Counted from the first letter of the stretch, positions 7,950 through 42,531 are shown. The stretch is 64,000 nt of DNA from Salinicola acroporae (GCF_003206615.1 NZ_PZJW01000012.1:186001-250000); one strand, 5' to 3'. Numbers and translations: made by a program. Notes: generated by a model not told the origin, from the sequence alone.

Positions 7950-8140
7950 TGCGTCACTCCTTTATTGTTGCCGTTGTTATCGAAATCGCTGCTATTGAAA
8001 CCGTTGTCGTTGAGACACTCGTTATCGAAACCACCGTTGGCGAGTGCCGCTATCGAGCCGATACCGCCAGCGTCGGACGGCCACGCTCGCGCCGGCTGAC
8101 GAGGCGAGGCCGTCGAGATCCCGGCGCGCGCGTCGCTCAT
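7946..8140 (-). CDS. Small 64-aa ORF with Asn/Asp/Phe-rich tail, unknown function
   Basis: I do not recognise this protein. Its ATG overlaps the stop of the cytochrome gene (ATGA at 8137-8140) and its stop overlaps the ATG of the next membrane protein (7946-7949), so it bridges the two genes without a gap. Residues 1-35 are Ala/Arg/Gly/Ser-rich; residues 36-60 are an imperfect repeat of Asn, Asp, Gly and Phe ('GGFDN', 'NGFNSSDFDNNGNN'). No signal peptide or transmembrane helix is visible. It could be a real small protein, or merely an open frame that keeps ribosomes moving into the transporter genes. The double overlap is the only strong evidence. Confidence 0.45.
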   Translation of the reverse strand: MSDARAGISTASPRQPARAWPSDAGGIGSIAALANGGFDNECLNDNGFNSSDFDNNGNNKGVTQ

Positions 8141-11127: not shown

Positions 11128-11618
11128 TCGCCACCCCCCGGCGCCACACCGGCGGCATCCAGCTCGGCCGCCAGGGTGGCGGCTTCGAGAATTTCGACAT
11201 GGGTTCCGCAACGGCAGAGATTGTATTTGAGCGCGCTGACGATCTGGTCACGTGACGGCTGCGCACAGTGATTGAGCAGCCCCCGCACCGTCATGATCAT
11301 GCCGTTGAGGCAGTAGCCGCACTGGGCCGCCTGGCATTCGACGAACGCGGCCTGCACCGGATCGAGACGACCCGACTCGCCCAGGCCCTCGAGCGTGACG
11401 ACGTCGCGGCCGGCCACGGCCCCCAGGGAGATTACGCAGGAGCGGGCAACACGACCCTCGACCAGTACGCTGCAAGCCCCGCACTGACCCAGGCCGCAAC
11501 CGTACTTGGGGCCATTGAGACAGAGATCGTTGCGTAGAACCTGAAGTAGCGGGGTCGCGGGGTCGAGCGACAGGTGCCGTATTTGGCCATTGACCCGCAA
11601 AGCGATGCTGTCCGTCAT
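11124..11618 (-). CDS. nicA: Nicotinate dehydrogenase small [2Fe-2S] subunit
   Basis: A 164-residue iron-sulfur subunit of a xanthine-oxidase-type hydroxylase that converts nicotinate to 6-hydroxynicotinate. The plant-type ferredoxin cluster ligands are in 'KYGCGLGQCGACSVL' (about residues 39-53), with the further Cys in 'VARSCVI'. The second cluster uses 'CGYCLNGM' and 'LCRCGTH' (about 97-138). Length and motif order match P. putida NicA (157 aa). It is the first gene of the minus-strand operon and is divergent from nicC. The cytochrome subunit gene overlaps it. Homology to small subunits of other ring hydroxylases is high, so the substrate assignment rests on the nic genes around it. Confidence 0.9.
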   Translation of the reverse strand: MTDSIALRVNGQIRHLSLDPATPLLQVLRNDLCLNGPKYGCGLGQCGACSVLVEGRVARSCVISLGAVAGRDVVTLEGLGESGRLDPVQAAFVECQAAQCGYCLNGMIMTVRGLLNHCAQPSRDQIVSALKYNLCRCGTHVEILEAATLAAELDAAGVAPGGGE

Positions 11619-11851: not shown

Positions 11852-13222
<1,371 letters not shown>

Positions 13223-13336
13223 TGCGTTGCCACACGGCCATGGCCCAGGCACCCGGCAACGACAGCCGGGATGCTGGAAACCCCTAGCAGGCCGACGTAT
13301 CGACGCTTCCCAGACGTCCACGAGGAAAGACCTGAC

Positions 13337-14152
13337 ATGAGCACTTATCTCTACGGCGCCAATGTCCATGCCAACGGCATTCGTCAGCACTATCTGCGTT
13401 TCGGCGGCGAACGCGCCGCGACTGGCCAGCCGCTGGTGCTGATTCCCGGCATCACCAGCCCGGCGATCACCTGGGCTTTCGTGGCCGAGCGCCTGGGCGA
13501 GAGTTTCGATACCTACGTTCTCGATGTGCGTGGCCGAGGGCTGTCATCGACCGGCCCGGAGCTCGCCTATGACACCGATACCTGCGCCGCCGACGCCGCC
13601 GCTTTCATTGCCGCGCTGGGGCTCGAGAACGTCATTCTGGCAGGCCATTCGATGGGTGCCCGCTTCGCGATCCGCGCCGCCAGCCGCGGCGTGCCGACGC
13701 TCGACAAGCTGGTATTGATCGATCCGCCGGTCTCCGGGCCAGGCCGGCGCGAATATCCCAGCAAACTGCCGTGGTACGTCGACTCCATTCGCGACTGCAT
13801 CAAAGGCTGCGACCTGGAGACGATGCGCCAGTACTGCCCGACCTGGAGCGACGAGCAGCTAGCGCTGCGAGCGGAGTGGCTGCATACCTGCTTCGAGCCG
13901 GCCATCGTGCAGGCCTTCGAGGAGTTTCATACGGTCGATATCCATCAGGACCTGTCTGCAATCACGGTGCCGACGCTGCTGATCTGCGCGGGCAGAGGCG
14001 GCGTCATTCAGGCGGAAGACAAGGCTGAAATCCAGACGCTTCTTCCGAGCATCCAGATCACCACGGCAGACAACGCCGGCCACATGATCCCGTGGGATGA
14101 CTTCGAAGGTTTTTTTCTCGCCTTCGAGGATTTTCTGGGCCGCCGGCTATGA
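13337..14152 (+). CDS. nicD: N-formylmaleamate deformylase
   Basis: A 271-residue alpha/beta hydrolase that splits N-formylmaleamate into maleamate and formate. ATG 13337 follows a GAGGAAAG site. The nucleophile is Ser105 in 'LAGHSMGARFA', the acid Asp129 in 'LVLIDPP' and the base His about 249 in 'DNAGHMIPWDD'. These lie four residues after Ser101, Asp125 and His245 of P. putida NicD, and the oxyanion region 'IPGITSPA' is present. It follows nicC by 114 bases, and nicE/nicF lie further along the run. A generic esterase is the alternative, unlikely here. Confidence 0.92.
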   Translation: MSTYLYGANVHANGIRQHYLRFGGERAATGQPLVLIPGITSPAITWAFVAERLGESFDTYVLDVRGRGLSSTGPELAYDTDTCAADAAAFIAALGLENVILAGHSMGARFAIRAASRGVPTLDKLVLIDPPVSGPGRREYPSKLPWYVDSIRDCIKGCDLETMRQYCPTWSDEQLALRAEWLHTCFEPAIVQAFEEFHTVDIHQDLSAITVPTLLICAGRGGVIQAEDKAEIQTLLPSIQITTADNAGHMIPWDDFEGFFLAFEDFLGRRL

Positions 14153-14340
14153 CGGCATCGACAGCCTGACAGACACGGCACAACGGCAGCGAAGAGACCA
14201 TCAGAACAACTGCCAACGAGGATTCGATGCCGCCATGAACCGTGTGGCGTCATCGACGAAGACCGCCCGCACGGCGGTCGGCCCGGCGATCGCGTCAGAC
14301 AGCCGATGACAACCAGCAACAACAACGATCGGGAATCGCT

Positions 14341-15651
14341 ATGTCTACCCTCTCCTCGGTGGCCGGCACTGCAGAGGTGTCGCCACACGACGAACTCTAC
14401 CGACGCGTGATCTGGCGTCTGATACCGCTGTTGGGACTGTGCTACCTGACGGCCTATCTCGATCGGATCAACATCGGCTTCGCCAAGCTGCAGATGGCCG
14501 AACAGCTATCGTTCAGCGAGACCGCCTATGGTCTCGGCGCCGGATTGTTCTTCGTCGGCTACATCCTGTTCGAGGTGCCCAGCAACCTGGTGCTGGAGAA
14601 GGTCGGGGCGAGGCTCTGGCTCGCCCGCATCATGATCAGTTGGGGCATCCTCTCCGGCCTGACGATGCTGGTGACCCAGGCCTGGCAGTTCTATCTGCTG
14701 CGCTTCCTGCTGGGCGCGGCGGAGGCCGGATTCCTGCCCGGGGTGCTGTTCTATCTCACCGGCTGGTTCCCCTCCTGGCGCCGCGCCCGCATCATCGCCC
14801 TGTTCATGATCGGCCTGCCGCTCTCCAGTCTCGTCGGCGGGCCGCTATCCGGCACCATCATGACCTTCGCCGACGGCTGGCACGGGCTGTTCGGCTGGCA
14901 ATGGCTATTCCTGCTGGAGGCGATTCCCACGGTCATTCTTGGACTGGTCCTGCTGGTGGCACTGCCCGACAGCCCGCATCAGGCCAGGTGGCTGAGTACC
15001 CACGAGCGGCAGGCGCTGGAATCGGAACTCGCCCGCGACAGCGCCGCCAACCCGAGTCAGCAGACCACTTTTCGCGACGGTTTCTTCAACCTGAAGGTAT
15101 GGATGCTGGGCGGCATCGATTTCGCCATCCTGCTGAGTGCCTACGCCATCGGCTTCTGGCTGCCGACCTTCATTCGCAACGCCGGCGTCAGCGACAGCTC
15201 GACCATCGGCTGGCTGACCTCGATATCCAGTCTGGCCGGGCTGGTCGGGATGCTACTGGTCGGCTTCAGTTCCGACCGCCATCGCGAACGCCGTTGGCAT
15301 ATCATCGTGCCGTTTCTGATCGGCGCGGCGGCGATGTCGCTAAGCACGCTATTCGCCCACAACGCCGTGGCGACCGTGATCGTATTCGCCATCGCATCGT
15401 GCGCGATCATGGGCGCGATTCCGGTCTTTTTCAGCCTGCCGGCAACCTTTCTCAGGGGACAGGCGGCGGCGACCGGATTCGCGCTTGCCTGTTCGCTGGC
15501 CAATATCGCGGGCCTGGTCAGCAATTCGTTGATGGGCTGGATTCTGGATCTCACGGGGAGCAGTGCACTCGCCCTGCTCTGCTTCGCGGCGGCCCTGCTG
15601 TTGGGCTGCCTGTTGGTCCTGGCCTTGCCCAGCCACCAGGTCAACCGCTGA
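14341..15651 (+). CDS. nicT: MFS transporter, anion:cation symporter (ACS) type, probable nicotinate permease
   Basis: A 436-residue twelve-helix transporter. 'CYLTAYLDRINIGFAKLQM' after helix 1 is the signature of the ACS family (tartrate, phthalate, hydroxyphenylacetate permeases). Other typical pieces are 'RFLLGAAEAGFLPGVLFYL' and 'GWFPSWRRARI'. P. putida has a related permease, NicT, in its nic cluster, and the position between nicD and the other nic genes supports nicotinate or 6-hydroxynicotinate uptake. The symbol is by analogy; another aromatic carboxylate cannot be excluded, especially since two more transport systems are encoded nearby. Confidence 0.8.
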   Translation: MSTLSSVAGTAEVSPHDELYRRVIWRLIPLLGLCYLTAYLDRINIGFAKLQMAEQLSFSETAYGLGAGLFFVGYILFEVPSNLVLEKVGARLWLARIMISWGILSGLTMLVTQAWQFYLLRFLLGAAEAGFLPGVLFYLTGWFPSWRRARIIALFMIGLPLSSLVGGPLSGTIMTFADGWHGLFGWQWLFLLEAIPTVILGLVLLVALPDSPHQARWLSTHERQALESELARDSAANPSQQTTFRDGFFNLKVWMLGGIDFAILLSAYAIGFWLPTFIRNAGVSDSSTIGWLTSISSLAGLVGMLLVGFSSDRHRERRWHIIVPFLIGAAAMSLSTLFAHNAVATVIVFAIASCAIMGAIPVFFSLPATFLRGQAAATGFALACSLANIAGLVSNSLMGWILDLTGSSALALLCFAAALLLGCLLVLALPSHQVNR

Positions 15652-15790
15652 ACCGCGTCATGCCACCATCACCAACAGGAGTCGAAGCCCCACCCAACCC
15701 ACGACAACCTTGATTAAACTCATCGACCTCATAGCGCGTCGAGCAGCCCGTTTCTCGAACAACACAACGACAAATCTGGAGAACAGAGCA

Positions 15791-16777
15791 ATGATCAAGC
15801 AACTCATCACCGCCGGCGTGATCGCCAGCAGCCTCGGGCTGGGCTTCTCGGCCCAGGCCGCACCACTCAACGAGAACCTGTGCGGTGGCAGTCCGAATGG
15901 CCTGTGGCAACTGCTGGGTGTCGGCATGGACGGCGTGCTCAAGGCCGAGAATCCGGATTCCAGCGTCACCTATCAGACGTCGTCCGGCGGCTTTGCCAAC
16001 ATCATCCAGATGCAGGGCGATACCTGTGACCTCGCCATCGTCCACGCCGGCGAAGCGATGAAGGCGATCTCCGGCGAACCGCCATTCCCCAAGGCGGTAA
16101 ACAACTTCCGGGCGATCGGCGTGCTGTATAACTGGGCCCCGATGCAGTGGGTCATGACCCAGGACTTCTCCGACAAGTACGGCATCCACTCGCTGCAGGA
16201 TATCGCCGACAAGAAGCCACCGCTGAGACTGGTACTCAATCGCAAGGGCATTCTTCCCTCGATGGTCGGCGAGTCGTCCCTCAAAGCGCTCGGCGTGACC
16301 CCGGACGACATCGAGTCCTGGGGAGGCAGCGTGGTCTACCAGGGCTCAGCGGTCGCCACCGAGCTGGTCCAGAACCGTCGCGCCGACATGTGGGCCAACG
16401 AGACCTTCGTCGGCAGCAGCGCGATCAGTGGCATGGCGGAAAATCGCCCAATGACCTTGCTGGCAGTGCCGGATAGCGTGATCAAGGCCATGGAGGAGGA
16501 GTACGGCGACAAGCCCTATACCGTATCGGCCGATGCCTATACCTGGCTCGATCATCCGGTTCAGACGCATACCGCCGCGGCCATGCTGGTGGCGCCGGCC
16601 ACGATGGCCGACGATGAGGCTTACCGCATCACCAAGGATCTGATCGAACACATCGACGTCATGCAAGGGGTGCACCCGGCGATGAAGCAGCTCACACCCG
16701 AAACCCTGCTCGGGCAATCGGTCGTCGAGTTGCATCCCGGCGCCAAGCGCGCTTACGAGGAGGCGGGTCTACTCTAG
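15791..16777 (+). CDS. TAXI-family TRAP transporter solute receptor
   Basis: A 328-residue periplasmic binding protein with an N-terminal signal peptide (residues 1-22, cleavage after 'SAQA') and the TAXI core: 'GSPNGLWQLLGVGMDGVLKAE' early on, 'TSSGGFANIIQMQGDTCDLAI' and the late 'VHPAMKQLTPE'. The start ATG has GGAGA 9 bases upstream. TAXI receptors feed fused TRAP permeases, and exactly such a permease is the next gene. The usual ligands are C4/C5 dicarboxylates or amino acids; in this operon a pyridine carboxylate such as quinolinate, or maleate/fumarate, is plausible. No ligand can be read from sequence. Confidence 0.85.
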   Translation: MIKQLITAGVIASSLGLGFSAQAAPLNENLCGGSPNGLWQLLGVGMDGVLKAENPDSSVTYQTSSGGFANIIQMQGDTCDLAIVHAGEAMKAISGEPPFPKAVNNFRAIGVLYNWAPMQWVMTQDFSDKYGIHSLQDIADKKPPLRLVLNRKGILPSMVGESSLKALGVTPDDIESWGGSVVYQGSAVATELVQNRRADMWANETFVGSSAISGMAENRPMTLLAVPDSVIKAMEEEYGDKPYTVSADAYTWLDHPVQTHTAAAMLVAPATMADDEAYRITKDLIEHIDVMQGVHPAMKQLTPETLLGQSVVELHPGAKRAYEEAGLL

Positions 16778-17036
16778 CAGCCTTTCGGGCTTGACCGATC
16801 GTCGCGAAAACGACGGATTTTGTGTCAGATTGATCGATCGGATGAGGCGAATAGCCCCGCTATTTAACGAGTCCGAGCGAGTGAAGCTGACCAAAAGCCC
16901 GAGGTTTGCAGCAGATCAGCGTTACGTCCGACAGGCTGCCAGGCGGTCCGCGCGGCGCCGGAAGCCTTGGTGACCGGCGCCGGCGACGCCGCCAATGCCA
17001 CTCGACCTCACGACACCACTCTCATGGGACGACAAC
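16778..17036 (+). other. Gap between TRAP receptor and permease
   Basis: 259 bases without a convincing gene. A short inverted repeat AATAGC-CCC-GCTATT lies at 16850-16864; its stem is only 6 bp and no T-run follows. It may moderate transcription or mRNA stability between receptor and permease, which usually need different amounts. Confidence 0.4.
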
Positions 17037-18971
17037 ATGACTCGCGGTAATCTCACTCGCCTGGCCAACGGCCTGATGTCGACGGGGCGCCGCCGCCAGC
17101 CGCAAGGCATCTTCAGCTGGCTGCTGAAGTGCTATGCAGCCGTCATTGCCGTGTGGGTAATCTGGACGACGATCTTCTCCACGGCGGATGTGCTGGCGCT
17201 GACCATCGTCTTCCTGACCCTGATGCTGGTGCTGGTGTTCTTCCTGATCGCGCCCAACGACAAACCCGGCGCGGAGACGCCGAGCCCGCTCGACTGGGGT
17301 CTGGTGGTTGCCAGTGCCTCCTGCGCCATCTTCTTCATCGGTTCGATCGACGATCTGGCCAACCGGATCAGCCTGTTGACGCCCCTGACCCCCGCACAGC
17401 TCGGCTTCGGTGTGCTGATCACCCTGCTCACCCTGGAGGCCACACGTCGCACCGTCGGTCTTGGCCTGACCCTCATCGCCACCGTTTTCATCATTTACAA
17501 CCTGGCGGGACACCTGCTGTCGGGAATGTTCCGTCACGGCTACCTGCCGTTATCCTATTTCATCGATGTCAACGTCTATACCAGCGACGGGCTGTTCGGC
17601 GTTCCGGTTCGCGTCGCCGCCACCTACGCCTTTCTGTTCGTGATGTTCGGGACCTTTCTCGACAGCGTCCGCGGCGGCGATTTCTTCTTCAATCTCGCCG
17701 CCCGCCTGACCGGACGCTCGACCGGCGGGCCGGCCAAGGTCGCGGTGGTCTCCTCGGCGCTGTTCGGTACGGTTTCCGGAAGCCCCACCGCGGACGTGGT
17801 CACCACCGGCTCCATCACCATTCCCCTGATGCAGCGCCTCGGTTTCTCGCGCAACCTGGCGGCCGGGATAGAAGTCGCCGCCTCCACCGGTGGCAGTATC
17901 CTGCCGCCGGTCATGGGCTCGGTCGCCTTCATCATGGCCGAGTACACCGGCATCGCCTACAGCGAGATCATCATCGCCGCCCTAGTCCCCGCGCTGCTCT
18001 ACTACATGGGCGTACTGGTGCAGGTGCATCTGTACTGCAAGCGCCACGGACTCGGCCAGCTGGCAGCCGAGGCAGTGCCGTCATGGTCTACGGTGATGCG
18101 TGGCGCCTGGCTATTTTTGATCCCGCTGGCGGCGATGGTGATTCCCCTGGTGATCGGTTACTCGCCGACCTTCGTGGCGCTGTTCGGTACCGGCGCGATC
18201 GTGATCTGCTCGCTGTTCAGTCGCCAGCACCGGCTGACACCGAAGTCGCTGCTCGACGCCCTGGCCACCACCACCTTTCGCATGGTCGGCGTCACGGCCG
18301 CCTGCGCCGCGGCGGGACTGGTGATCGGCGGCATCACCATGACCGGTCTCGCGACCAAGTTCTCGTCGATCGTGATGCTGCTGGCCGGCGACAGCACCTT
18401 CATGACGCTGTTCTTCACCGCGATCATCACCATCATCCTCGGCATGGGCATGCCGACACCCAGCGCCTACATCCTGGCCGCCGTGCTGCTCGGGCCAACC
18501 CTGGTCAACACGCTCGGGCTGCCGATGATGTCGTCGCATCTGTTCATCCTCTACTACGCGGTACTCTCGGCATTGACGCCACCGGTCGCCGTCGCGGCCT
18601 ACGCGGCATCGGCGATCTGCGGGGGTAACCCGGTGAGCATCGCGGCACAGGCGGTACGCCTGGCGATCTTCGCCTTCGTGTTCCCGTTCGCCATCGTCTA
18701 CAACCCCAGCATCACGCTGGACGGCACGCTGCTGAGCTGCGGGCTGGAGATCGCCCAGGCCTTCATCGCGACCCTGGCCATCGCCATTGCGACCGAGGGC
18801 TATCTCCGCCAGCGGTTGTCTCCCGGCGTACGACTGCTGCTGATGGCCGCCGGGCTGACCCTGCTCTCTCCGAGCGGCTGGCCGGTACTCGGCGGCCTCA
18901 TCGTGGTTGCCGTCATTGTCGCGTATCAACTGTTCGGCGCTGGCGCTCGTCGCCCGGCAACCCATCCGTGA
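17037..18971 (+). CDS. Fused TRAP transporter permease (4TM + 12TM)
   Basis: A 644-residue inner-membrane protein. The first part (to about residue 150) holds the small DctQ-like segment, and the rest is the DctM-like large permease with 'FGTVSGSPTADVVTTGSITIPLMQ' (about 240-265), 'GGSILPPVMGSVAFIMAEYTG' and 'GMGMPTPSAYILAAV'. All are typical of TAXI-associated TRAP permeases. I use ATG 17037; an upstream in-frame ATG at 16995 has no better ribosome site. It works with the receptor just upstream, driven by a sodium gradient. Its place in the nic run suggests import of a pathway substrate. Confidence 0.88.
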   Translation: MTRGNLTRLANGLMSTGRRRQPQGIFSWLLKCYAAVIAVWVIWTTIFSTADVLALTIVFLTLMLVLVFFLIAPNDKPGAETPSPLDWGLVVASASCAIFFIGSIDDLANRISLLTPLTPAQLGFGVLITLLTLEATRRTVGLGLTLIATVFIIYNLAGHLLSGMFRHGYLPLSYFIDVNVYTSDGLFGVPVRVAATYAFLFVMFGTFLDSVRGGDFFFNLAARLTGRSTGGPAKVAVVSSALFGTVSGSPTADVVTTGSITIPLMQRLGFSRNLAAGIEVAASTGGSILPPVMGSVAFIMAEYTGIAYSEIIIAALVPALLYYMGVLVQVHLYCKRHGLGQLAAEAVPSWSTVMRGAWLFLIPLAAMVIPLVIGYSPTFVALFGTGAIVICSLFSRQHRLTPKSLLDALATTTFRMVGVTAACAAAGLVIGGITMTGLATKFSSIVMLLAGDSTFMTLFFTAIITIILGMGMPTPSAYILAAVLLGPTLVNTLGLPMMSSHLFILYYAVLSALTPPVAVAAYAASAICGGNPVSIAAQAVRLAIFAFVFPFAIVYNPSITLDGTLLSCGLEIAQAFIATLAIAIATEGYLRQRLSPGVRLLLMAAGLTLLSPSGWPVLGGLIVVAVIVAYQLFGAGARRPATHP

Positions 18972-19003: not shown

Positions 19004-19876
19004 ATGACCCTCGAAAGACGAACGCCCCCCCAGGCCTGGCAGCTCGACCCGCTGGTGCTGGACGACCAGATCCGTGCCTTCCTGCGCGAAGATATCGGCT
19101 ACTTCGATCTCACCGCGACGCTACTGATCGATGCCGAGCTGCCCGGTCGCTTCGAGATGCGCGCTCGGGAACCGATGACGCTCGCCGGCCTTGCCGCTGC
19201 CGCCCGTGTTTTCACGTTCTACGACGCCAGCATTCAGGTCGAGGTGCTGGCAAGGGATGGCCAGCAGGTCGACAAGGGCACCACCCTGCTCAAGATCGAA
19301 GGTCCGGCGCGCAGCATTCTGACCGCCGAACGCACCGCACTGAACCTGGCCCAGCATCTTTCCGGCATCGCCACCGTCACCGCGACCTATATCGAGCGGA
19401 TCGCCGGTACCCGGGCGCAATTGATCGATTCCCGCAAGACCACGCCAGGGCTTCGCGCCATGGAGAAGCATGCCGTGGCCTGCGGTGGCGGTCGCAACCA
19501 CCGCCTGGGTCTGGACAACGGCATCATGCTCAAGGACAACCACATCGCCGTCTGCGGCAGCATCACCGCCGCCGTCGCCCGCGCCAGGTCCAGCGTGCCG
19601 GTGCTGACCAAGGTCGAGGTCGAGTGCGACCGCTTCGACCAGGTGGAAGAAGCGCTCGCCGCCGGGGCCGACGTGATCATGCTCGACAACATGGCGGTGG
19701 AAGAGATGCAGCGGGCGGTGGCCATGGTCGATGGCCGTGTGCTGCTGGAGGCGTCCGGCGGCGTGCGCCTGGAAACCATTCGCGCCATCGCCGAGACCGG
19801 CGTCGACTTCATCTCGGTCGGACGCATCACGCAGTCGTCGCCAGCGCTGGACATCGGCCTCGACGACGCGGAGTGA
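19004..19876 (+). CDS. nadC: Quinolinate phosphoribosyltransferase (NadC-type, carboxylating)
   Basis: A 290-residue type-II phosphoribosyltransferase: quinolinate + PRPP gives nicotinate mononucleotide + CO2 + PPi. All key stretches look intact: 'TAERTALNLAQHLSGIAT' (about 108-125), 'DSRKTTPGLRAMEKHAVACG' (about 144-163), 'NHRLGLDNGIMLKDNH' (165-180), 'KVEVEC' (about 203-208), and 'DVIMLDN' with 'LEASGGVRLETI'. The conserved Arg, Lys and His residues that hold the two carboxylates are present. Canonical nadC genes sit with nadA/nadB or elsewhere; this one lies 32 bases after a TRAP permease and just before a PhnN-phosphorylase fusion inside the nic operon. It may serve catabolism rather than NAD synthesis. 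Whether a second nadC exists cannot be seen here. Confidence 0.88.
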   Translation: MTLERRTPPQAWQLDPLVLDDQIRAFLREDIGYFDLTATLLIDAELPGRFEMRAREPMTLAGLAAAARVFTFYDASIQVEVLARDGQQVDKGTTLLKIEGPARSILTAERTALNLAQHLSGIATVTATYIERIAGTRAQLIDSRKTTPGLRAMEKHAVACGGGRNHRLGLDNGIMLKDNHIAVCGSITAAVARARSSVPVLTKVEVECDRFDQVEEALAAGADVIMLDNMAVEEMQRAVAMVDGRVLLEASGGVRLETIRAIAETGVDFISVGRITQSSPALDIGLDDAE

Positions 19877-19881
19877 GCGGG

Positions 19882-21942
19882 ATGCGTTCGAACAATCCGC
19901 CGCGCGGCTTACTGGTACTGGTCGTCGGCCCCAGCGGGGCCGGCAAGGATACCCTGATGGAGCGGGCGCTGGCCGATTACACCTGCACCCAGCATGTGCT
20001 CCTGACGAGGCGGGTCATCACCCGTCCTGCCGATGCGGGCGGTGAAGATCATCAGGCGATGAGCGATTCGGATTTCGACGCGGCGCTCGGCGCCGGCGAG
20101 TTCCTGATCCACTGGCATGCCCACGGCCTGCGCTATGCGCTGCGCGCGTCGATTCGCGATGACCTGGCCCGCGGGCGCACGGTGCTGGCCAATGTGTCGC
20201 GCAAGGTCATCGGCGCCATCGCCGGACTGGGGCGGCCGGTTGCCGTGATCGACATCACGGCATCGCGCGAGGTCCGCGCGCGGCGCCTGTCGATGCGCGG
20301 GCGCGAAACCGCCAGCGACATCCTCGCCCGGCTCGAGACGCTGGAATGGCAGCCACCACGAGGCGTAGACCACTATCGGGTCGATAACGATGCCGACCTG
20401 AACACCGGCATCGAACGCTTTCTCATTGCGCTGGCCCGGGCCTGTGGTGGCGACACGCCGATTCGCCACCTGCCGATCGATAGCGGTCCTCGCCTGATCG
20501 GCTTCCTGTCGCTCCGCCACCCGCTGCGCGATGCGATACAGGCACTGCCCACGCCCCGCGTCGAGGTCGATATCCTCGGCCGGCCGCTGGTACTGGAAGT
20601 GCAGTGGGTCGACGACGACCACTGGCTGGCCCCCGATGCCATCGGCCTGGCTCGCGCCACCCTGGCACGGCTCGGGCTGATCGCCGGCATGCCCCTGCAA
20701 CTGCAACCGGCACCACCGCCTGTCGGCGCTGCGGCACTGCGGCGCAAGCTTCGCGGCCAGTCATTGAACGAAGACGAGTTCTTCGGCGTGGTCCACGACA
20801 TCGCCGACAACCGCTTCGACGAAGCGTCGACCGGGGCATTCCTGGCCAGCCTGGCCAATCACCTCGACGACGACGAGATCATCGCGCTGACCCGTGCCCG
20901 GGCGCGGATCGCCCAGACGTTGCACTGGGATCGCCCGATGGTGGTCGACAAGCACTCGATAGGTGGGCTCCCCGGCAGCCGGATCACGCTGATCGTGATC
21001 CCGATCGTCGCCGCGCATGGGCTGACCATTCCCAAGGCGTCGTCACGGGCGATCACCTCGCCGGCCGGCACCGCCGATACCATGGCGCTGTTCGCCGATG
21101 TCGAGCTCGGCCCGGACGACGTTCGCCGCGTCGTCAACGGGGCCAACGGCTGCATCGTCTGGAACGGGCGTCTGTCGCACACGCCCTTCGACGACATGAC
21201 CAACGCCATCGTGCGGCCGCTGGATCTGGACTCGGCGCGGATGAGCGTCGCTTCTATCCTGTCCAAGAAGCTGGCCGCCGGCGTCACCCATCTGGTCGTC
21301 GACCTGCCGACCGGGCCCCAGGCCAAGTTGCCGACCCAGGAGAAGGCGCAGGAGCTGAAGCGGCTGATGGAGTCGGTGGGGGCCGCGCTCGGCATCCGGG
21401 TACTGGCACGGATCACCGACGGCACCCAGCCGGTGGGCAGGGGCATCGGCCCCAACCTGGAAGCACGCGACGTCCTGCAGGTGCTGAACAACGACCCCGG
21501 CGCGCCGCGAGACCTGCGTGACAAGGCGCTCGATTTCGCCGGTGCGCTGCTCGACTGGGCACCGGACGTGAGACCCGGCGAGGGGCGTGCGCGCGCCGAG
21601 ACTCTGCTCGCCAGTGGCGCGGCAAAAGCCCGCTTCGAGCGCATCATCGAGCTGCAGGGTCGGCGTGGACTTCCGGCCGCGCCCGGCCCTTTTCACGCCG
21701 ATATCGTCGCGCCGGCTAGTGGCCGTATCAACCATATCGATATCTGGCGACTCAACTCGATCGCTCGACTCACCGGCGCCCCGGGCGACACACTGGCCGG
21801 ACTCGACCTCGTCGCCCACAAGGGTGAGCAGGTCGACATCGGTCAACCGCTCTACCGGCTATACGCCTCCAGCCAAAGCGCGCTCGACCGGGTCGTCGCC
21901 TTTGCCCGGACCGGCAACGCCTTCGAGCTGAAACGGGAGTGA
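19882..21942 (+). CDS. Fusion: ribose 1,5-bisphosphokinase (PhnN) + AMP-phosphorylase/thymidine-phosphorylase-like
   Basis: A 686-residue two-domain protein. Residues 10-185 are PhnN-like, with P-loop 'GPSGAGKDT' (16-24) and the Arg-rich 'RRLSMRGRET' lid; PhnN makes PRPP from ribose 1,5-bisphosphate and ATP. Residues about 195-686 match archaeal-type AMP phosphorylases of the DeoA superfamily: a small N-terminal beta domain, 'DKHSIGGLPGSR' (from 355), 'SSRAITSPAGTADTM' (from 388), and a C-terminal domain. AMP phosphorylase converts NMP + Pi to base + ribose 1,5-bisphosphate, the substrate of the fused kinase, so the fusion would channel it to PRPP. Start ATG 19882 is chosen; GTG 19873 overlapping the nadC stop is possible. 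With NadC upstream, NaMN is an attractive nucleotide substrate (inference). Confidence 0.85.
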   Translation: MRSNNPPRGLLVLVVGPSGAGKDTLMERALADYTCTQHVLLTRRVITRPADAGGEDHQAMSDSDFDAALGAGEFLIHWHAHGLRYALRASIRDDLARGRTVLANVSRKVIGAIAGLGRPVAVIDITASREVRARRLSMRGRETASDILARLETLEWQPPRGVDHYRVDNDADLNTGIERFLIALARACGGDTPIRHLPIDSGPRLIGFLSLRHPLRDAIQALPTPRVEVDILGRPLVLEVQWVDDDHWLAPDAIGLARATLARLGLIAGMPLQLQPAPPPVGAAALRRKLRGQSLNEDEFFGVVHDIADNRFDEASTGAFLASLANHLDDDEIIALTRARARIAQTLHWDRPMVVDKHSIGGLPGSRITLIVIPIVAAHGLTIPKASSRAITSPAGTADTMALFADVELGPDDVRRVVNGANGCIVWNGRLSHTPFDDMTNAIVRPLDLDSARMSVASILSKKLAAGVTHLVVDLPTGPQAKLPTQEKAQELKRLMESVGAALGIRVLARITDGTQPVGRGIGPNLEARDVLQVLNNDPGAPRDLRDKALDFAGALLDWAPDVRPGEGRARAETLLASGAAKARFERIIELQGRRGLPAAPGPFHADIVAPASGRINHIDIWRLNSIARLTGAPGDTLAGLDLVAHKGEQVDIGQPLYRLYASSQSALDRVVAFARTGNAFELKRE

Positions 21943-21949
21943 TGATGCC

Positions 21950-23116
21950 ATGTCGCGGACGGATGTAAGCGACGATGCCACGGTCGACGCCTTCGGGCGT
22001 CTGATCGGGAGCCTGCTCGATCAGAATCTCGATCAGCGCAAGCCACAGGTGGTGACATTCTGGTGCGGTGCCGGGTTCTCCAAGGCATGGGACCCTCGCT
22101 CTCCCACCGATGGCGAGCTGTTCGCGATCGATCTCGACGATATTCGTGACTTCCCCAACCTGCAGCACTTGATGCACGTCATCGGCTGGGAGGATTACCG
22201 TCATCTCGATTTCGAGCGTTTCAAGAACCTGCGCTACGTGCTCGACATGCAGGTGCGCTATCCCGATATCCGCAACCGGTATTTCGACGATCAGAACCTG
22301 CGCCTGAGCATCAACGAGTTGCGAACGCTGGTCATGCGCCGCTTCACCGCCGCCTGCGACATCCACAACGTCGACGACGCCAGTCTGCGTTTCACCTCGC
22401 CTTACGACAGCGACGGCCAGCGCGCCATCGTCCGGCTGTTCTCCGCACTGGAAGACCGTGCCAGCAGCGCGAACCTGGGCGCCAACTGGCCGCTATACCA
22501 TTTCCTGACCACCAACTACGACTTCACCATCGAGACCATCCTCGAACACGTCTATCGCCAGAACGCGCCGGTCTTTGGTCGTCTCTATCGGGGCGTCACG
22601 CCTCAACGGATCTGTGGCGGCACGATCTGGGAGCATCTGCCACGCACCGTCGACCGCAACGTGATCAAGATCAACGGCGGATTCGAGATTCTGCCGACGG
22701 CTCAAGGCTTCGACTTCGAATATCGCCAGCGCAGCGACGCCGAGATTCGCCAGGAGCCGCCGCTGCTGATCCTGCCATCCCAGGTCCAGGACTACGACGA
22801 GCCCTATTTCCATCAGGTATTCCCCAAGGCCGTGCGCCTGTTGCGGGAAACCGATGTCCTGGTGATCGTCGGATACAGCATGCCGCAGGAAGACTCCCTG
22901 GTGCGCTTCATCCTGCGTCAGCTCGCCGAGAGCCCCTTCGACGCCACCGGCAAGCATGTCTTCGTCATCGATACCAAGAACCACGCCACCATCAAGTCGC
23001 GACTGGAAGAGATGTTCTTCTATCTGCCGCGCACCGGCTGGCCACGCGAGCACTATTTCAGTGGCCGTTTCGAAGATTTCTGTCAACGCGTCGTCGAGCA
23101 GGGCGAGGTGCGGTAA
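21950..23116 (+). CDS. SIR2-like NAD-binding-fold protein
   Basis: A 388-residue protein starting 7 bases after the phosphorylase stop, with GGGAG upstream. It has the SIR2_2 Rossmann elements: 'WCGAGFSKAWDP' (GAG at 40-42, Ser44), 'LTTNYDFTIE' (Asn189, Asp191) and 'VIVGYSMPQEDSLVRFIL' (about 304-321). In active relatives a catalytic His is expected in a 'KLHG'-like motif; here the equivalent looks like 'IKINGG' with Asn242. The protein may therefore bind or sense NAD-like molecules, or work on another N-ribosyl bond, rather than being a standard NADase. Many SIR2-like proteins act in phage defence, but no defence partner is visible and it is embedded in a pyridine-nucleotide operon. Function unknown. 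Confidence 0.75.
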   Translation: MSRTDVSDDATVDAFGRLIGSLLDQNLDQRKPQVVTFWCGAGFSKAWDPRSPTDGELFAIDLDDIRDFPNLQHLMHVIGWEDYRHLDFERFKNLRYVLDMQVRYPDIRNRYFDDQNLRLSINELRTLVMRRFTAACDIHNVDDASLRFTSPYDSDGQRAIVRLFSALEDRASSANLGANWPLYHFLTTNYDFTIETILEHVYRQNAPVFGRLYRGVTPQRICGGTIWEHLPRTVDRNVIKINGGFEILPTAQGFDFEYRQRSDAEIRQEPPLLILPSQVQDYDEPYFHQVFPKAVRLLRETDVLVIVGYSMPQEDSLVRFILRQLAESPFDATGKHVFVIDTKNHATIKSRLEEMFFYLPRTGWPREHYFSGRFEDFCQRVVEQGEVR

Positions 23117-23218
23117 TGCCATGCCCGCCCACTCGACTTGCCACGACCCTGAGCCCGAGCGCAGCTCGCCCGCGTCGGACTCGCAATGCACCCAGGCCTG
23201 TTCACCGAGGAAAGCGCC

Positions 23219-23974
23219 ATGACCCAGCTGTATCGCATCGGCCAGATCGTCCCGAGCTCCAACGTCACCATGGAAACCGAGATTCCCGCGATGCTGACCG
23301 CCCGACAACTCATCCGCCCGGCGCAGCGTTTCACCTTCCACTCCAGCCGAATGCGCATGAAGACCGTGCGCAAGGAGGAGCTGGCCGCCATGGACGGGGA
23401 ATCCGATCGCTGTGCGCTGGAACTCTCCGATGCCCATGTCGACGTGATGGGCTATGCGTGTCTGGTCGCGATCATGTCGATGGGCCCCGGCTACCACCGT
23501 GAATCGCAGAAGCGCCTTCATCAGCGCAGCGTCGAGAACGGGCATCCCACGCCGGTCATCACCAGCGCGGGCGCGTTGGTCGACGCGCTGAAAGTAATGA
23601 ACGCCCGTCGCGTCGTTGTCGTGGCGCCATACATGAAACCGCTCACCGAGCTGGTGGTGAACTACATCCGCGAAGAGGGCGTCGAGGTGCTCGGTTATCG
23701 CGCCCTGGAGATACCCGACAACCTCGATGTCGCCCGCCACGACCCGATGCGCCTGCCGGAGATCGTCGCCGAACTCGACGTCAGCGACGCCGATGCCATC
23801 GTGCTGTCGGCATGCGTGCAGATGCCGTCGCTGGCTGCCGTCTCCAAGGTCGAGGCATTGACCGGCAAGCCCGTGGTGACCGCCGCCATCGCCACCACCT
23901 ACGCCATGCTCAAGGCACTCGACCTCGAGCCCGTCGTTCCGGGCGCCGGCGCGCTGCTCTCGGGCGCCTATTGA
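23219..23974 (+). CDS. nicE: Maleate cis-trans isomerase
   Basis: A 251-residue Asp/Glu-racemase-fold enzyme converting maleate to fumarate, the last step of the Nic pathway. ATG 23219 has a GAGGAAAG site. Two catalytic cysteines are visible: Cys81 in 'GYACLVAIMS' and Cys199 in 'LSACVQMPS', aligning with Cys82 and Cys200 of P. putida NicE. The N-terminal 'GQIVPSSNVTMETEIP' and 'HSSRMRM' are typical of maleate isomerases rather than of arylmalonate decarboxylases. It is followed by nicF after 84 bases. Confidence 0.93.
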   Translation: MTQLYRIGQIVPSSNVTMETEIPAMLTARQLIRPAQRFTFHSSRMRMKTVRKEELAAMDGESDRCALELSDAHVDVMGYACLVAIMSMGPGYHRESQKRLHQRSVENGHPTPVITSAGALVDALKVMNARRVVVVAPYMKPLTELVVNYIREEGVEVLGYRALEIPDNLDVARHDPMRLPEIVAELDVSDADAIVLSACVQMPSLAAVSKVEALTGKPVVTAAIATTYAMLKALDLEPVVPGAGALLSGAY

Positions 23975-24058
23975 ACAGGTTCATCGCCAGCAGGCAAGCC
24001 CGCGGCCGGGCTGGCCTGCTTTCCGCTATTCGTGAAGCCCATTCTCAAGGGGGTCGTC

Positions 24059-24685
24059 ATGTCTGAATCCGCCGCCAGCAACTACGCCGGCGTCTGGGGC
24101 AACCGCATCGGCTTCGGCCACAAGGCTGCCCTGCTGGTCATCGATTTCATGAAGGGATATACCACCGAAGGCGCGCCGCTCTACGCCCCGGGCGTGGTCT
24201 CCGCCGTCAAGATAGGCGGTGAGCTGTTGCAGGTCGCCCGCGAGACCGCGACCCCGATCATCCACACCAATATTCGCTATCAGCCTGGCAGCTTCCAGGA
24301 TGGCGGCATGTGGGTGAAGAAGGCCCCGGTGATGCGGGACATGGTCGAGGGCAACCCGCTGGCCGAATTCTGCGCCGAGGTGGCGCCTCGAGACGACGAG
24401 CTGGTCGTCACCAAGCAGTACGCCAGTGCGTTTTTCGGTACCTCGCTGGCGCCGACGCTGCATAGCCAGGGAGTCGATACGCTGATCGTGATCGGCTGCT
24501 CCACCAGCGGCTGCGTGCGGGCCACCGCCGTCGATGGCGTGCAGCACGGGTTCCGCGTCATGGTGGTCCGCGATGGCGTCGGTGATCGACATGAAGGGCC
24601 GCACGAGGCCAACCTGTTCGACATCGACAGCAAGTATGGCGACGTCATCGACAGCGACGAGGCCATGGCGTGGCTCAAGCGCTGA
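24059..24685 (+). CDS. nicF: Maleamate amidohydrolase (isochorismatase family)
   Basis: A 208-residue cysteine hydrolase that deamidates maleamate to maleate and ammonia. The catalytic triad is Asp29 ('LLVIDFMKGY'), Lys119 ('LVVTKQYASAFFGT') and Cys152 ('CSTSGCVRATAVDG'). ATG 24059 is chosen because AAGGGGG lies just upstream; the open frame extends nine residues further. Length and motifs match P. putida NicF. It is the last gene of the plus-strand run and convergent with nicR. Nicotinamidases and N-carbamoylsarcosine amidases share the fold; the position beside nicE decides. Confidence 0.92.
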   Translation: MSESAASNYAGVWGNRIGFGHKAALLVIDFMKGYTTEGAPLYAPGVVSAVKIGGELLQVARETATPIIHTNIRYQPGSFQDGGMWVKKAPVMRDMVEGNPLAEFCAEVAPRDDELVVTKQYASAFFGTSLAPTLHSQGVDTLIVIGCSTSGCVRATAVDGVQHGFRVMVVRDGVGDRHEGPHEANLFDIDSKYGDVIDSDEAMAWLKR

Positions 24686-24836: not shown

Positions 24837-25328
24837 TCACTCCTCCGAGGCGTTCATCTTGTCCAGCAGGTGCATGAGCGCCACGCGCTCGGCAGGATTG
24901 AGCTTGCCCATCGTCATATCGGAGATACGCTTGGCTCGCGGCACCATCGTCGCGACCAGCTCGCGCCCGGCCAGCGTGATGTCGACGATCACCTTGCGTT
25001 GATCGTTGGGATCGGATGACAGCGATATCCAGTCACGCGCCTTGAGCCGCTTGATCACGCCGCGAATGGTAGCGGGGTCGATGGCCGTCGCCTTGACCAG
25101 ATCGGTGAGCGCGCTAGGGCCGTTGTCCATGATCGTGCAGAGCGTGACGAACTGTATGGCGGTGAGCTGTTTGTCACAGCTCTGGCTTTGGAAGATCGCG
25201 GTATGCCGCTGATAGGCACGCCGCAGCAGATGGCCGACCTGCTCGGAGAATTCGTAATCCTGCTGGTGGGGCGTCGCGGCGGCGTTCGGGTCCACTTCAT
25301 CGACGGCATGACCGAAGGCATTCGACAT
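24837..25328 (-). CDS. nicR: MarR-family repressor of the nic genes
   Basis: A 163-residue winged-helix regulator. ATG 25328 has GGAG 9 bases upstream; a TTG 15 bases earlier is an inferior alternative. The central part 'LTAIQFVTLCTIMDNGP' and 'LTDLVKATAIDPATIRGVIKRLKARDWI' is the DNA-binding helix-turn-helix, with the wing Asp-Arg motif varied to 'SDPNDQRKVIVDIT'. P. putida NicR is a MarR protein released by 6-hydroxynicotinate. The gene lies between nicF and the catalytic dehydrogenase operon and is divergent from the latter, a usual place for a local repressor. Confidence 0.87.
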   Translation of the reverse strand: MSNAFGHAVDEVDPNAAATPHQQDYEFSEQVGHLLRRAYQRHTAIFQSQSCDKQLTAIQFVTLCTIMDNGPSALTDLVKATAIDPATIRGVIKRLKARDWISLSSDPNDQRKVIVDITLAGRELVATMVPRAKRISDMTMGKLNPAERVALMHLLDKMNASEE

Positions 25329-25708
25329 GATCTCACTCTCCAAGCACCATCCTCCAGGCCTCGCCCAGCCGCCACCGCCCGCCGGGCATCGTCGATTTGC
25401 ATCGCGGCGGCGGGCGCGGCAAGCAGGGAAAAAGCGCAGAGCGAGGCTGTGATTTTAGGTGTAGTCGCTGTAATTTCTGAGAAAAATACTACACCATTTG
25501 GTCAAATTTCATCCACCCACAAACCGAAAGAATCGCCATTCAACTGTTTTTCATGAATTAATTACCAGCTGATGGCGAGACAGGAAATCATCGACGATCG
25601 CAGTAACAGTGTCTACGTGCATTTCTACGCGAAATGATTGACTCACCGGCTCGCCAGCCAGCCTGTTTCCGGTGGAGACTTTCCCTACAACAACAGAGGC
25701 CGTGCGGC
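25329..25708. promoter_or_regulatory. Divergent nicR / dehydrogenase control region
   Basis: 380 bases, AT-richer at 25450-25560. GGTGTAGT at 25458-25465 is mirrored by ACTACACC at 25488-25495 (8-base perfect inverted repeat, 22-base spacer). GTGTCTACG occurs at 25609-25617, followed closely by TTCTACGCG. The same GTGTCTACG core is in the nicX promoter region. These are candidate regulator sites. On the minus strand TTGACC overlaps this region but no good -10 is at the right distance. Confidence 0.5.
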
Positions 25709-27964
25709 ATGACGTCGACTTCACTCCCCACTCGCGAGCATCTACTGCAGGGCACCGACATGCTGGTGGTCTATCGCGCTCCGGTGATACCGCCGAAGCC
25801 CGCTCCCGGCCAGCCGGGCACACGCTCCGATTTCATCCCCACCGAGCCGGAGCTGTTCATCGCCCTGCTTGCCGATGGCCGCTTCCTCGCCTTCAACGGC
25901 CACGTCGACCTGGGCACCGGCGTCCGGACTGCGCTGACGCAGATCGTCGCGGAGGAACTCGATGTCGATGTCGAGCGCGTCATCATGGTATTGGGCCATC
26001 CGTTCGAGGTGCCGAATCAGGGGCCGACCATCGCCAGCGCCACCATCCAGATTTCCGCCGCACCGCTGCGCTGCGCTGCCGCCCAGGCCAGGCAGTACCT
26101 GCTGGCGCGGGCCGCCCGGCGCCTCGACATACCGGCGCAACAGCTGCAGGTGGAAGACGGGATCGTCTCCGTGACTCCGGGCGATGCCAGCCGAGGGCTG
26201 CGTTACGAGTCACTGCTGGCCGGCGAGCGCGTCGCCCTCGAGCTCGACACCGAGATACCGACCAAGGCGAGCCGTGACTACCGGGTGGTGGGACGCAGCA
26301 CGCCGCGGGTCGACATTCCCGCCAAGGCCAGCGGCGAGTTCGTTTATGTCCACGATGTTCGCCTGCCTGGCATGCTGCACGGGCGCGTCGTGCGACCACC
26401 TTACGCGGGGCATGATCTGGGCACGTTCGTCGGTCGCAGCCTGATCGAGGCCGAGGAGGCGTCTGTGCGAGACCTGCCGGGTTTCGTTGCCCTGATCGTC
26501 AAGGGGGATTTCGTCGGTGTCGTGGCCGAGCGGGAAGAGCAGGCCGCGCTCGCCGCCAAGCGCCTCAAGGTCCGCTGGCGTCCACTGCCGGCACTTCCCG
26601 ATCTCGACGATCTGGAGACCGCGCTGCGCCGCCAGCCGGCCGAACATCGCCCGTTGCTGCAGCAAGGCGACGTCGATGCGGCGCTGGCCACGGCATCGAC
26701 GGTACTCGAGCGCACCTACCTCTGGCCCTATCAGTTGCACGGCTCGATCGGCCCCTCCTGTTCGGTCGCCGATTATCGCGACGGCTATCTGACGCTTCAT
26801 TCCGGCACCCAGAATCCGCACAGCCTGCGTGCCGATATCGCGACGCTGCTGGCCATGGACGAAAGCCGTATCGAGATCCGCCGCCATGAAGCGGCCGGCT
26901 GCTACGGTCGCAACTGTGCCGATGACGTCGGCGCCGACGCCGCGCTGCTGTCGAACGCCGTGGGCCGGCCGGTGCGCGTGCAGCTGGATCGCGCTCAGGA
27001 ACATGAATGGGAGCCGAAGGGAACCGCGCAATTGATGGATATCCGTGGCGGCAGCGACGACGACGGCAAGCTCTGCGCCTATGACTTCGTGACTCGCTAC
27101 CCCTCCAACGACGCCCCGACACTGGCCCTGCTGTTGACCGGTGCCAGACAGCCCAGCGACGTACCTTTCCAGATGGGGGATCGAACCTCGGTGCCTCCTT
27201 ATCGCTACCCGCACCTGAGAGTCGCCTGCGACGATGTCGCGCCGATCGTCCGAGCCTCCTGGCTACGCGGAGTCTCGGCCCTTCCCAACTGTTTCGCTCA
27301 CGAGAGCTTCATCGACGAACTGGCCGAACGCGCCGGCGTCGACCCGGTGGAATATCGGCTACACTACCTGGAGCCGCGCGCGCAGGCGCTGGTGGCCGCC
27401 GTTGCCGAGCGGGCCAACTGGTTCGACCGACCGCCGGCAACCGCTGTCGGCGATGGCTGGTCCGAGGGCCATGGTTTCGCCTATGGCCACTACGTGCACA
27501 GCAGGTTCCCGGGATTCGGCGCGGCCTATGCCGCCTGGGCAGTGACCCTCCAGGTTCATCGCGATAGCGGCCGGATTCGTGTCGTGCGCCTCACGGTGGG
27601 CCAGGATGCCGGGCTGATGATCAATCCCGCCGGCGTGCGCCATCAGGTTCACGGCAACGTCATCCAGACCCTGAGCCGAACGCTGAAGGAGTGCGTGAGC
27701 TTCGAACGGGGCCTACCGGTCAGCCGCGAATGGGGTGGCTATCCGATCCTGCGATTCGACGAACTGCCGCTCATCGATCTGCTGCTGCTCGACAATGCCG
27801 GCGAGGCGCCGCTGGGCGTGGGTGAATCCACGTCACTGCCCGGGGCCCCGGCCATTGCCGCGGCGCTTTTCGATGCCACCGGCGTCCGTTTTCGCGAGCC
27901 CCCCTTCACCCCGGAGCGGGTGCGGTCGGCGTTGGCTTCGGCAGGGTCGACGGTCGCCGCCTGA
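25709..27964 (+). CDS. nicB: Molybdopterin-binding nicotinate dehydrogenase catalytic subunit
   Basis: A 751-residue xanthine-oxidase-family large subunit lacking the cytochrome c tail of NicB. ATG 25709 has a GAGG site. N-terminal 'FNGHVDLGTGVRTALTQIVAEEL' and 'GPTIASATIQISAAPLR' are early molybdopterin-binding segments. The middle part carries 'RHEAAGCYGRNCADDVGADAALL'-type pterin contacts, and the C-terminal 'GVGESTSLPG' has the catalytic Glu706. It has no iron-sulfur or heme motif, so it must use NicA (11124-11618) and the cytochrome subunit (8137-11127) for electron flow. XdhC and MocA genes follow in the same operon. Assignment to nicotinate rests on context; hydroxylation of a related ring is possible. 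Confidence 0.82.
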   Translation: MTSTSLPTREHLLQGTDMLVVYRAPVIPPKPAPGQPGTRSDFIPTEPELFIALLADGRFLAFNGHVDLGTGVRTALTQIVAEELDVDVERVIMVLGHPFEVPNQGPTIASATIQISAAPLRCAAAQARQYLLARAARRLDIPAQQLQVEDGIVSVTPGDASRGLRYESLLAGERVALELDTEIPTKASRDYRVVGRSTPRVDIPAKASGEFVYVHDVRLPGMLHGRVVRPPYAGHDLGTFVGRSLIEAEEASVRDLPGFVALIVKGDFVGVVAEREEQAALAAKRLKVRWRPLPALPDLDDLETALRRQPAEHRPLLQQGDVDAALATASTVLERTYLWPYQLHGSIGPSCSVADYRDGYLTLHSGTQNPHSLRADIATLLAMDESRIEIRRHEAAGCYGRNCADDVGADAALLSNAVGRPVRVQLDRAQEHEWEPKGTAQLMDIRGGSDDDGKLCAYDFVTRYPSNDAPTLALLLTGARQPSDVPFQMGDRTSVPPYRYPHLRVACDDVAPIVRASWLRGVSALPNCFAHESFIDELAERAGVDPVEYRLHYLEPRAQALVAAVAERANWFDRPPATAVGDGWSEGHGFAYGHYVHSRFPGFGAAYAAWAVTLQVHRDSGRIRVVRLTVGQDAGLMINPAGVRHQVHGNVIQTLSRTLKECVSFERGLPVSREWGGYPILRFDELPLIDLLLLDNAGEAPLGVGESTSLPGAPAIAAALFDATGVRFREPPFTPERVRSALASAGSTVAA

Positions 27965-41505: not shown

Positions 41506-42531
41506 TCAGTCGCGGCGCTGCATCTCCTTCACCGCGATGTCGCCATCGAGCACGATCGGCTCGTCATCGAGAAACAGGCTGCAGTTGCGCATCGGAATGT
41601 CGAGATGGCAGGCGGTGTCGTTACTGCCGCCCAGCTCGTTGTTGGGACCGGTCGAGAACATGACGTTACCGTAGAACGAACGCAGCTCCATCCCCATGCC
41701 TCCGGGGAACTGGGTCAGTCCGTGCCAGTCGGCGCGATGATCCAGGCCCCAGCCGACATGCGACATGCCGAGCCCGCGAGGATCCTTGAAGGTACCCATG
41801 TAGGACTTGATCAGCTCGGCATCCAGCCCACCACGAATATCGGTGATGAAGCCCTTCTCGATGGTGTAGGTCACCGGTTCGCGCACGTAGGTGTTGAACG
41901 GTAGCAGCACATCGCCCGGCGCCAGCACGATCTGGCCGTCGACCCCGTCGTCGGCACCACCGGTGAACACGAACGCCGCCGGCCAGTGATCCCAGCGCCC
42001 GGGCTCGTCGGTAAAGCCGTACTCACTCATGGTCGGATAGACGCCGAGGCGATAGGTGACATCGGTGCCGTGCGGGCTGGTAATCCGCATCGTGCTCGCC
42101 TTGGCGAGCAGCTCGGCCCCGACCTCGACCCGCTCGCGCAGCTCCTGGGTCGGCATCAACTTGGCGAGTAACGGTGCTGGCTCGACGGCGGTCAGAACCC
42201 GCGCGCCCGCCGCCTGGATCGCCATCTGTTCATCGCTGAACAGCAGGAAGATCAGATCGACGACCATATCGGCCTGCTTGAGCGCTTCCACCGCTTCCGG
42301 GTTGGAGGCCAGCCCCGTTTCGCCGACGGCCCAGGCGCCGCTGCCCGGCATCGGGGCCGGCAGGCGCATGTGATACATCCGCGCGCCGAGACGCTGCCCC
42401 GCGGCGAGGAAGGCATCTGCGTAATCCAACCGCTCCTGGCCCTGGGACAACACCACGACCTTTTCACCCTCGTGAACGCCGCTGAGCGTCAACTGCTGCA
42501 GACACATCTCGATCAGTACATGCTGTTCCAT
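41506..42531 (-). CDS. nicX: 2,5-dihydroxypyridine 5,6-dioxygenase
   Basis: A 341-residue extradiol-type Fe(II) dioxygenase that opens 2,5-dihydroxypyridine to N-formylmaleamate, joining the NicC and NicD steps. It belongs to a fold related to M29 aminopeptidases, so automatic annotation as leucyl aminopeptidase is likely. The late segments '[15 protein letters not shown]' and '[20 protein letters not shown]' hold the His, His and Asp iron ligands known in P. putida NicX (350 aa). GGAGG lies 11 bases before ATG 42531. It sits 12 kb from the rest of the nic genes, beyond dgkA, pip and the peptide operon, and has its own promoter region. Confidence 0.9.

Follow-up and report, generated by a model that had tools for sequence, protein, structure and literature searches.

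We analysed a 64,000-nucleotide stretch of the 4.37 Mb genome of Salinicola acroporae (GCF_003206615.1, NZ_PZJW01000012.1:186001-250000; hereafter the window), in which a gene for quinolinate phosphoribosyltransferase, nadC (19004-19876, + strand), is followed by a single gene (19882-21942, +) that joins a PhnN ribose-1,5-bisphosphokinase to an AMP-phosphorylase-like half. Judging from sequence comparison, we consider it likely that this pair is a transferable cassette that would turn quinolinate into nicotinate through a cycle that regenerates phosphoribosyl pyrophosphate (PRPP). In the proposed cycle, quinolinate would be imported and would react with PRPP at NadC to give nicotinate mononucleotide (NaMN), pyrophosphate (PPi) and CO2; the phosphorylase half would split NaMN with phosphate (Pi) into nicotinate and ribose 1,5-bisphosphate; and the PhnN half would use ATP to rebuild PRPP from ribose 1,5-bisphosphate, releasing ADP, for the next turn. 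The net reaction would be quinolinate + ATP + Pi to nicotinate + CO2 + ADP + PPi, and the nicotinate would enter degradation by the NicAB, NicC, NicX, NicD, NicF and NicE route. The NadC and PhnN reactions are established for those families, and N-ribosylation renders the 2-carboxylate labile, so that PRPP would act as a recycled activating group.

A preliminary description of this DNA had reported a complete NadC followed by a polypeptide with PhnN and AMP-phosphorylase-like parts, and the profile scores confirmed it, together with the 5 bases that separate the nadC stop from the fusion start. The 290-aa NadC, a member of the cassette-type clade described below, scored 329 bits against the TIGR00078 equivalog (cut-off 198). 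Alignment placed its R110, R144, K145, H166, R167, K177, E207 and D228 at the catalytic positions of E. coli NadC, all eight residues are unchanged across five cassette copies, and the enzyme presumably makes NaMN from quinolinate and PRPP. The fusion is one protein of 686 aa. Its residues ~9-180 are PhnN (TIGR02322, 169.9 bits, cut-off 156), with the P-loop GPSGxGKD common to E. coli PhnN and all fusions, and residues ~195-680 scored 563 bits against PRK04350 (cut-off 434) and 473 bits against TIGR02645 (cut-off 435). The closest solved structure to the fusion is an archaeal enzyme, 4GA5. Public records give the fusion the PhnN label alone; a separate, stand-alone PhnN-like gene lies elsewhere in the same genome.

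The preliminary description proposed searching other genomes for conserved linkage of nadC, the fusion and nic genes, and held that a linkage unique to this strain would undermine its reading. We found nadC directly upstream at 11 of 11 fusion loci. These comprise four in Salinicola, where the cassette recurs in S. corii, S. lusitanus and S. peritrichatus, and one each in the genomes G383, G983, G1104 and G1112, on a Variovorax megaplasmid, and on Pacificitalea and Paraburkholderia plasmids. The fusion rather than nadC served as the query that recovered G383 and, at lower identity, G983, G1104, G1112, Variovorax and Pacificitalea; the Paraburkholderia copy came from a nadC query. Fusion loci occur in alpha-, beta- and gammaproteobacteria, some chromosomal and others plasmid-borne, and this spread rules out a quirk of one strain. 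The gap between the two genes is 3-24 bases at loci where both starts could be placed, and the nadC of the fusion loci outside Salinicola is 59-83% identical to that of the window. Near stand-alone phosphorylase genes, nadC was found at 0 of 18 loci, viewed with flanks of up to about 10 kb. A Fisher test of 10/10 against 0/18 gave p about 8e-8, a value that overstates independence, the four Salinicola being relatives.

We aligned the phosphorylase halves of the 11 fusions with 61 stand-alone relatives, using the residue numbering of E. coli thymidine phosphorylase; the alignment has a gap around R171. The phosphate-site residues K84, H85, S86, S113 and T123 are kept in all 11 fusions (K357, H358, S359, S387 and T397 in that of the window), S95 occurs as S or T, and the base-contact residues S186 and K190 are also kept in all 11. 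In five columns that are uniform or nearly so across all 61 stand-alone relatives, every fusion has another residue: Y168 (I in the relatives, N in the fusions), L160 (L, H), G155 (G, N), D172 (E; V, I, T or N) and I183 (M or L; S, with one D). The M63 column likewise holds M in the relatives and R in the fusions. Archaeal AMP phosphorylase 4GA5 agrees with the stand-alone group in having I, L, G, M and E, the fusion counterparts of which are N441, H433, N428 and S455, with E444 lost. A conserved phosphate site beside a base pocket that has lost an acid and gained polar or basic residues fits a base that is neither adenine nor a pyrimidine, such as nicotinate, and we infer that NaMN would be the substrate of this half. 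The family and the phosphate site agree with the earlier label of AMP-phosphorylase-like. The score against the AMP-phosphorylase equivalog TIGR03327 (394 bits, cut-off 535) falls short, and the base pocket is altered; on these two grounds we rejected a plain AMP phosphorylase.

Transport genes usually adjoin the cassette, which moves with carboxylate transporters of varying type. A TAXI-family tripartite ATP-independent periplasmic (TRAP) system lies near it in the window, S. lusitanus, S. peritrichatus, G383, Pacificitalea and G1112, with the TAXI solute-binding gene preceding the nadC-fusion pair in G383 and Pacificitalea and following it in G1112. Major facilitator superfamily (MFS) genes are near the cassette in G983 and in S. 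corii, whose locus has no TAXI-TRAP genes, ABC genes are near that of Paraburkholderia, and a tripartite-type (TTT) binding protein is encoded near that of Variovorax. The Variovorax protein is orthologous to Bordetella pertussis Bug27 (PDB 2QPQ, 457 bits). Bug27 and Bug69 bind quinolinate with a dissociation constant of about 0.1 uM and prefer it at least 40-fold over nicotinate and nicotinamide; the same 2024 study noted that bug27 neighbours nadC and phnN in both Variovorax and Jezberella, and read the arrangement as PRPP supply for synthesis of nicotinamide adenine dinucleotide (NAD), without mention of the phosphorylase half or of a catabolic role (PMC11452294). Quinolinate would be the probable transported substrate.

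The claim that the pair sits among nicotinate-degradation genes proved correct, with nicA to nicF and nicX all in the window. Ahead of the pair are a NicB-like subunit with a molybdopterin domain and three cytochrome c domains (8137-11211, -; Pfam cytochrome domains), a NicA-like 2Fe-2S subunit (11124-11618, -; Pfam Fer2 and Fer2_2), the 6-hydroxynicotinate 3-monooxygenase NicC (11861-13222, +; 575 bits to PDB 5EOW), whose true start is probably near 12068, and the N-formylmaleamate deformylase NicD (13271-14152, +; 305 bits to PDB 4L0C, Deformylase). They are followed by an HpaX-like MFS transporter (14242-15651, +; NCBIfam HpaX, 2A0114), a candidate pyridine-carboxylate importer with a homologue within the G983 nic cluster, a TAXI-family TRAP solute-binding protein (15563-16777, +; TIGR02122), whose true start is probably downstream of 15563, and a TRAP transporter fused permease (16995-18971, +; TIGR02123, 572 bits). 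Beyond the pair come a SIR2-like protein (21950-23116, +; Pfam SIR2_2), the maleate isomerase NicE (23186-23974, +; 365 bits to PDB 4FQ7), a NicF-type maleamate amidohydrolase of the isochorismatase family (24032-24685, +; Pfam Isochorismatase; PDB 4L07, 3OT4/3UAO), a MarR-family regulator that is a candidate NicR (24837-25343, -; Pfam MarR, 39 bits) and lies in a region matching the G383 nic cluster, and a second molybdopterin-binding hydroxylase subunit (25634-27964, +; Pfam MoCoBD_1 and MoCoBD_2). Absence of NicX from the cluster was considered and rejected: the 2,5-dihydroxypyridine 5,6-dioxygenase gene is at 41506-42531 (-; 318 bits to PDB 7CN3), and its product is 76% identical to a G1112 nic-cluster protein. 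Since NicA, B, C, X, D, E and F are all encoded, the window codes for the whole route from nicotinate to fumarate.

The cassette is flanked by two differing molybdenum hydroxylase large subunits, in the 8137-11618 region and at 25634-27964, either of which may belong to the nicotinate hydroxylase. The molybdopterin domain of the first is about 31% identical to the second subunit, and the first also aligns with NicB-like proteins of G383, G983, G1112 and G1104. A SIR2-like gene follows nadC at the examined Salinicola loci with or without the cassette and is not in the cassette elsewhere; the protein at 21950-23116 gave no clear match to a defence family. An FRG-domain gene stands beside the cassette in Variovorax, Paraburkholderia and G1112 (loci L114, L146 and L151), and the Variovorax and G1112 copies match the PADLOC candidate defence family PDC-S15. 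Near the start of the window, 266-1294 encodes an ADP-ribosylglycohydrolase-family protein (Pfam, 206 bits).

Three unrelated hosts, G383, G983 and G1112, have a complete nicA-F cluster away from the cassette, and nicX lies among or next to those genes in each; in G1104, genes for NicA- and NicB-like proteins are found about 5 kb from the cassette. The cassette may be co-regulated with the nic genes. No NicC was found in G012, a Salinicola genome that lacks the cassette.

The proposal had also called for a search for a second, canonical nadC, which gave a divided answer. In the genome that holds the window there is none: the window nadC is the single strong match, and the other match, at 22.5 bits, is below the cut-off and recurs in G007, which has no real nadC. 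Among the genomes compared, an ordinary second nadC is absent from the four cassette-bearing Salinicola and present in G383 (44% identical), which belongs to another family of the same order and therefore does not need its cassette copy for NAD synthesis, having the ordinary one. Of 18 Salinicola genomes, 16 have nadA together with nadC and two (G001 and G007) have neither; all 18 carry a gene of the nicotinate phosphoribosyltransferase family. The two genomes without nadA and nadC, keeping that transferase, are predicted niacin auxotrophs.

Phylogeny and gene order point to how this distribution may have arisen. At the other examined Salinicola loci nadC has a sodium:solute symporter gene on one side and a SIR2-like gene on the other, and the genes further downstream match those of the window; where a Salinicola carries the cassette, that nadC site is surrounded by inserted nic genes, transport genes and the fusion. 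In the tree, the nadC of cassette-bearing Salinicola joins the cassette copy of G383 (99/99) and is separate from the remaining Salinicola sequences. A clade (99/98) unites every Salinicola nadC, every fusion-linked nadC and a single Paracoccus plasmid copy, and excludes the sequences from other Halomonadaceae, E. coli, Rhizobium and Azospirillum. From this tree, it seems that an ordinary nadC was lost from the genus, which now lives with a cassette-type one. A Paracoccus zhejiangensis plasmid (L147) carries a cassette-type nadC without the fusion, beside cobalamin-synthesis genes.

Several points weigh against the cycle. Salinicola has no nadC besides this one, which occurs together with nadA, and NAD synthesis must therefore depend on it as well; a co-transcribed NaMN phosphorylase would drain the NaMN pool there unless it were induced, kinetically restrained or offset; nicotinate phosphoribosyltransferase could provide the offset by returning nicotinate to NaMN. 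The preliminary description had counted against itself a nadC that was the only copy and essential for NAD synthesis with no effect on quinolinate or nicotinate catabolism, and this objection stands by half: the single copy tracks nadA across the genus and so cannot be purely catabolic there. Its placement of the pair in a nic operon holds in Salinicola and near the G1104 cassette, the sole hosts with adjacent nic genes; elsewhere they are non-adjacent, and the nic operon is not the usual seat of the cassette. No close NicC was found in G1104, and the co-occurrence of cassette and nic clusters is suggestive only. The pocket and phosphate-site roles assigned to the E. coli thymidine phosphorylase residues are, moreover, ones that we presume.

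The pair could instead supply PRPP for NAD, with the phosphorylase half cleaving AMP, CMP or UMP, PhnN making PRPP and NadC salvaging quinolinate into NAD. This stays close to the published reading of nadC-phnN-bug27, in which PRPP made by PhnN feeds NadC (PMC11452294). It would also suit the sole Salinicola nadC that tracks nadA, and the stand-alone homologues that lie beside PRPP-synthetase genes on Sphingobium plasmids. We nevertheless consider it unlikely: at pocket positions where stand-alone bacterial homologues agree with archaeal AMP phosphorylase, every fusion has a different residue; an ordinary nadC is already available to G383; and the nic clusters in cassette hosts would be left unexplained. 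Genomes also have ordinary PRPP synthesis, and re-salvage of the base by a phosphoribosyltransferase would spend the PRPP gained. The stand-alone AMP-phosphorylase-like genes beside a PRPP-synthetase-like gene, seen on Novosphingobium as well as Sphingobium plasmids, hint at another bacterial ribose 1,5-bisphosphate pathway.

Overflow control, in which the fusion degrades surplus NaMN to nicotinate and so trims NAD or recycles pyridine nucleotides with no nutritional purpose, would rely on the same chemistry as the cycle. Turnover of NAD is hinted at by the SIR2-like, FRG-domain and ADP-ribosylglycohydrolase genes that lie close to some cassettes, and nicotinate phosphoribosyltransferase could re-salvage the nicotinate. 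The steady pairing with carboxylate importers and nic genes, the plasmid locations and the second nadC of G383 point outward, however, and make this decidedly improbable. We give least credence, and very little, to an additional NadC, tolerant of phthalate and similar inhibitory analogues of quinolinate, that shields NAD synthesis beside catabolic genes. NadC is inhibited by phthalate, and a related NadC occurs in a phthalate-dioxygenase-like cluster on Sphingobium plasmids, but those clusters lack the fusion, which would have no job on this account, and the window nadC is the only copy in its genome. At these Sphingobium loci (L148 and L149) a neighbouring-clade NadC, perhaps phthalate-tolerant, stands amid a Rieske oxygenase, a Gfo/Idh dehydrogenase, a substrate-binding-like protein and MarR. 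The quinolinate-to-nicotinate cycle itself is thus supported in part: the linkage, transport genes, nic clusters, second nadC of G383 and remodelled pocket favour it, and a purely catabolic NadC in Salinicola does not hold.

Each component resembles a known system and departs from it. The window NadC has the family, active-site residues and presumed reaction of the NadC of de novo NAD synthesis (EC 2.4.2.19), whereas it falls in its own clade with fusion-linked copies, adjoins the fusion and transport genes, and stands among nicotinate-catabolic genes rather than beside nadA and nadB. With archaeal AMP phosphorylase of the pentose bisphosphate pathway (EC 2.4.2.57) the fusion has in common its family, its phosphate-site residues and presumed phosphorolysis of a 5'-nucleotide to base and ribose 1,5-bisphosphate; it differs in its altered base pocket, its score below the TIGR03327 cut-off and the attached PhnN. 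In the archaeal pathway ribose 1,5-bisphosphate passes to an isomerase and Rubisco, whereas the fusion would return it to PRPP. The closest known logic is that of the C-P lyase pathway, where PhnN, as a ribose-1,5-bisphosphokinase, rebuilds PRPP after ribosyl-activated catabolism, but the window PhnN is joined to a phosphorylase, has NadC as its partner and has no phosphonate genes beside it. Known nic clusters for aerobic nicotinate degradation by the maleamate pathway resemble the window in gene content and start at nicotinate, whereas the window appears to add a quinolinate entry step upstream.

The betaproteobacterial nadQ-nadC-bug69 and nadC-phnN-bug27 loci combine nadC with a quinolinate-binding periplasmic protein, and the Variovorax locus type is common to both studies; they were published as quinolinate salvage into NAD, with the phosphorylase half and the nic link unreported (PMC11452294). 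The preliminary description knew of no such route, and we found neither a catabolic quinolinate-to-nicotinate route nor an AMP phosphorylase acting on NaMN described in the open-access literature, an absence that is no proof of novelty; the linkage of nadC, phnN and a transporter, by contrast, had already been noticed (PMC11452294). The enzyme parts are known, and their catabolic assembly seems undescribed.

In its wider form, the proposal is that PRPP serves as a recyclable catabolic handle, that the fusion contains a new, NaMN-specific phosphorylase, that the cassette has spread horizontally, and that in Salinicola a NadC of the catabolic clade is now the sole copy and also makes NAD. We favour this account, with somewhat less confidence than the cassette and cycle alone. 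Quinolinate is a tryptophan breakdown product, an NAD precursor and a neuroactive compound, and its direct decarboxylation is hard. If the proposal is true, a reaction of NAD synthesis would serve as a catabolic decarboxylase and give pyridine degradation a new entry point, and C-P lyase would be joined by a second case in which PRPP is recovered after ribosyl activation. The fusion would gain a function, with a new enzyme activity, NaMN phosphorylase, predicted for it, and the presence of nadC in a genome would not always mean NAD synthesis alone.

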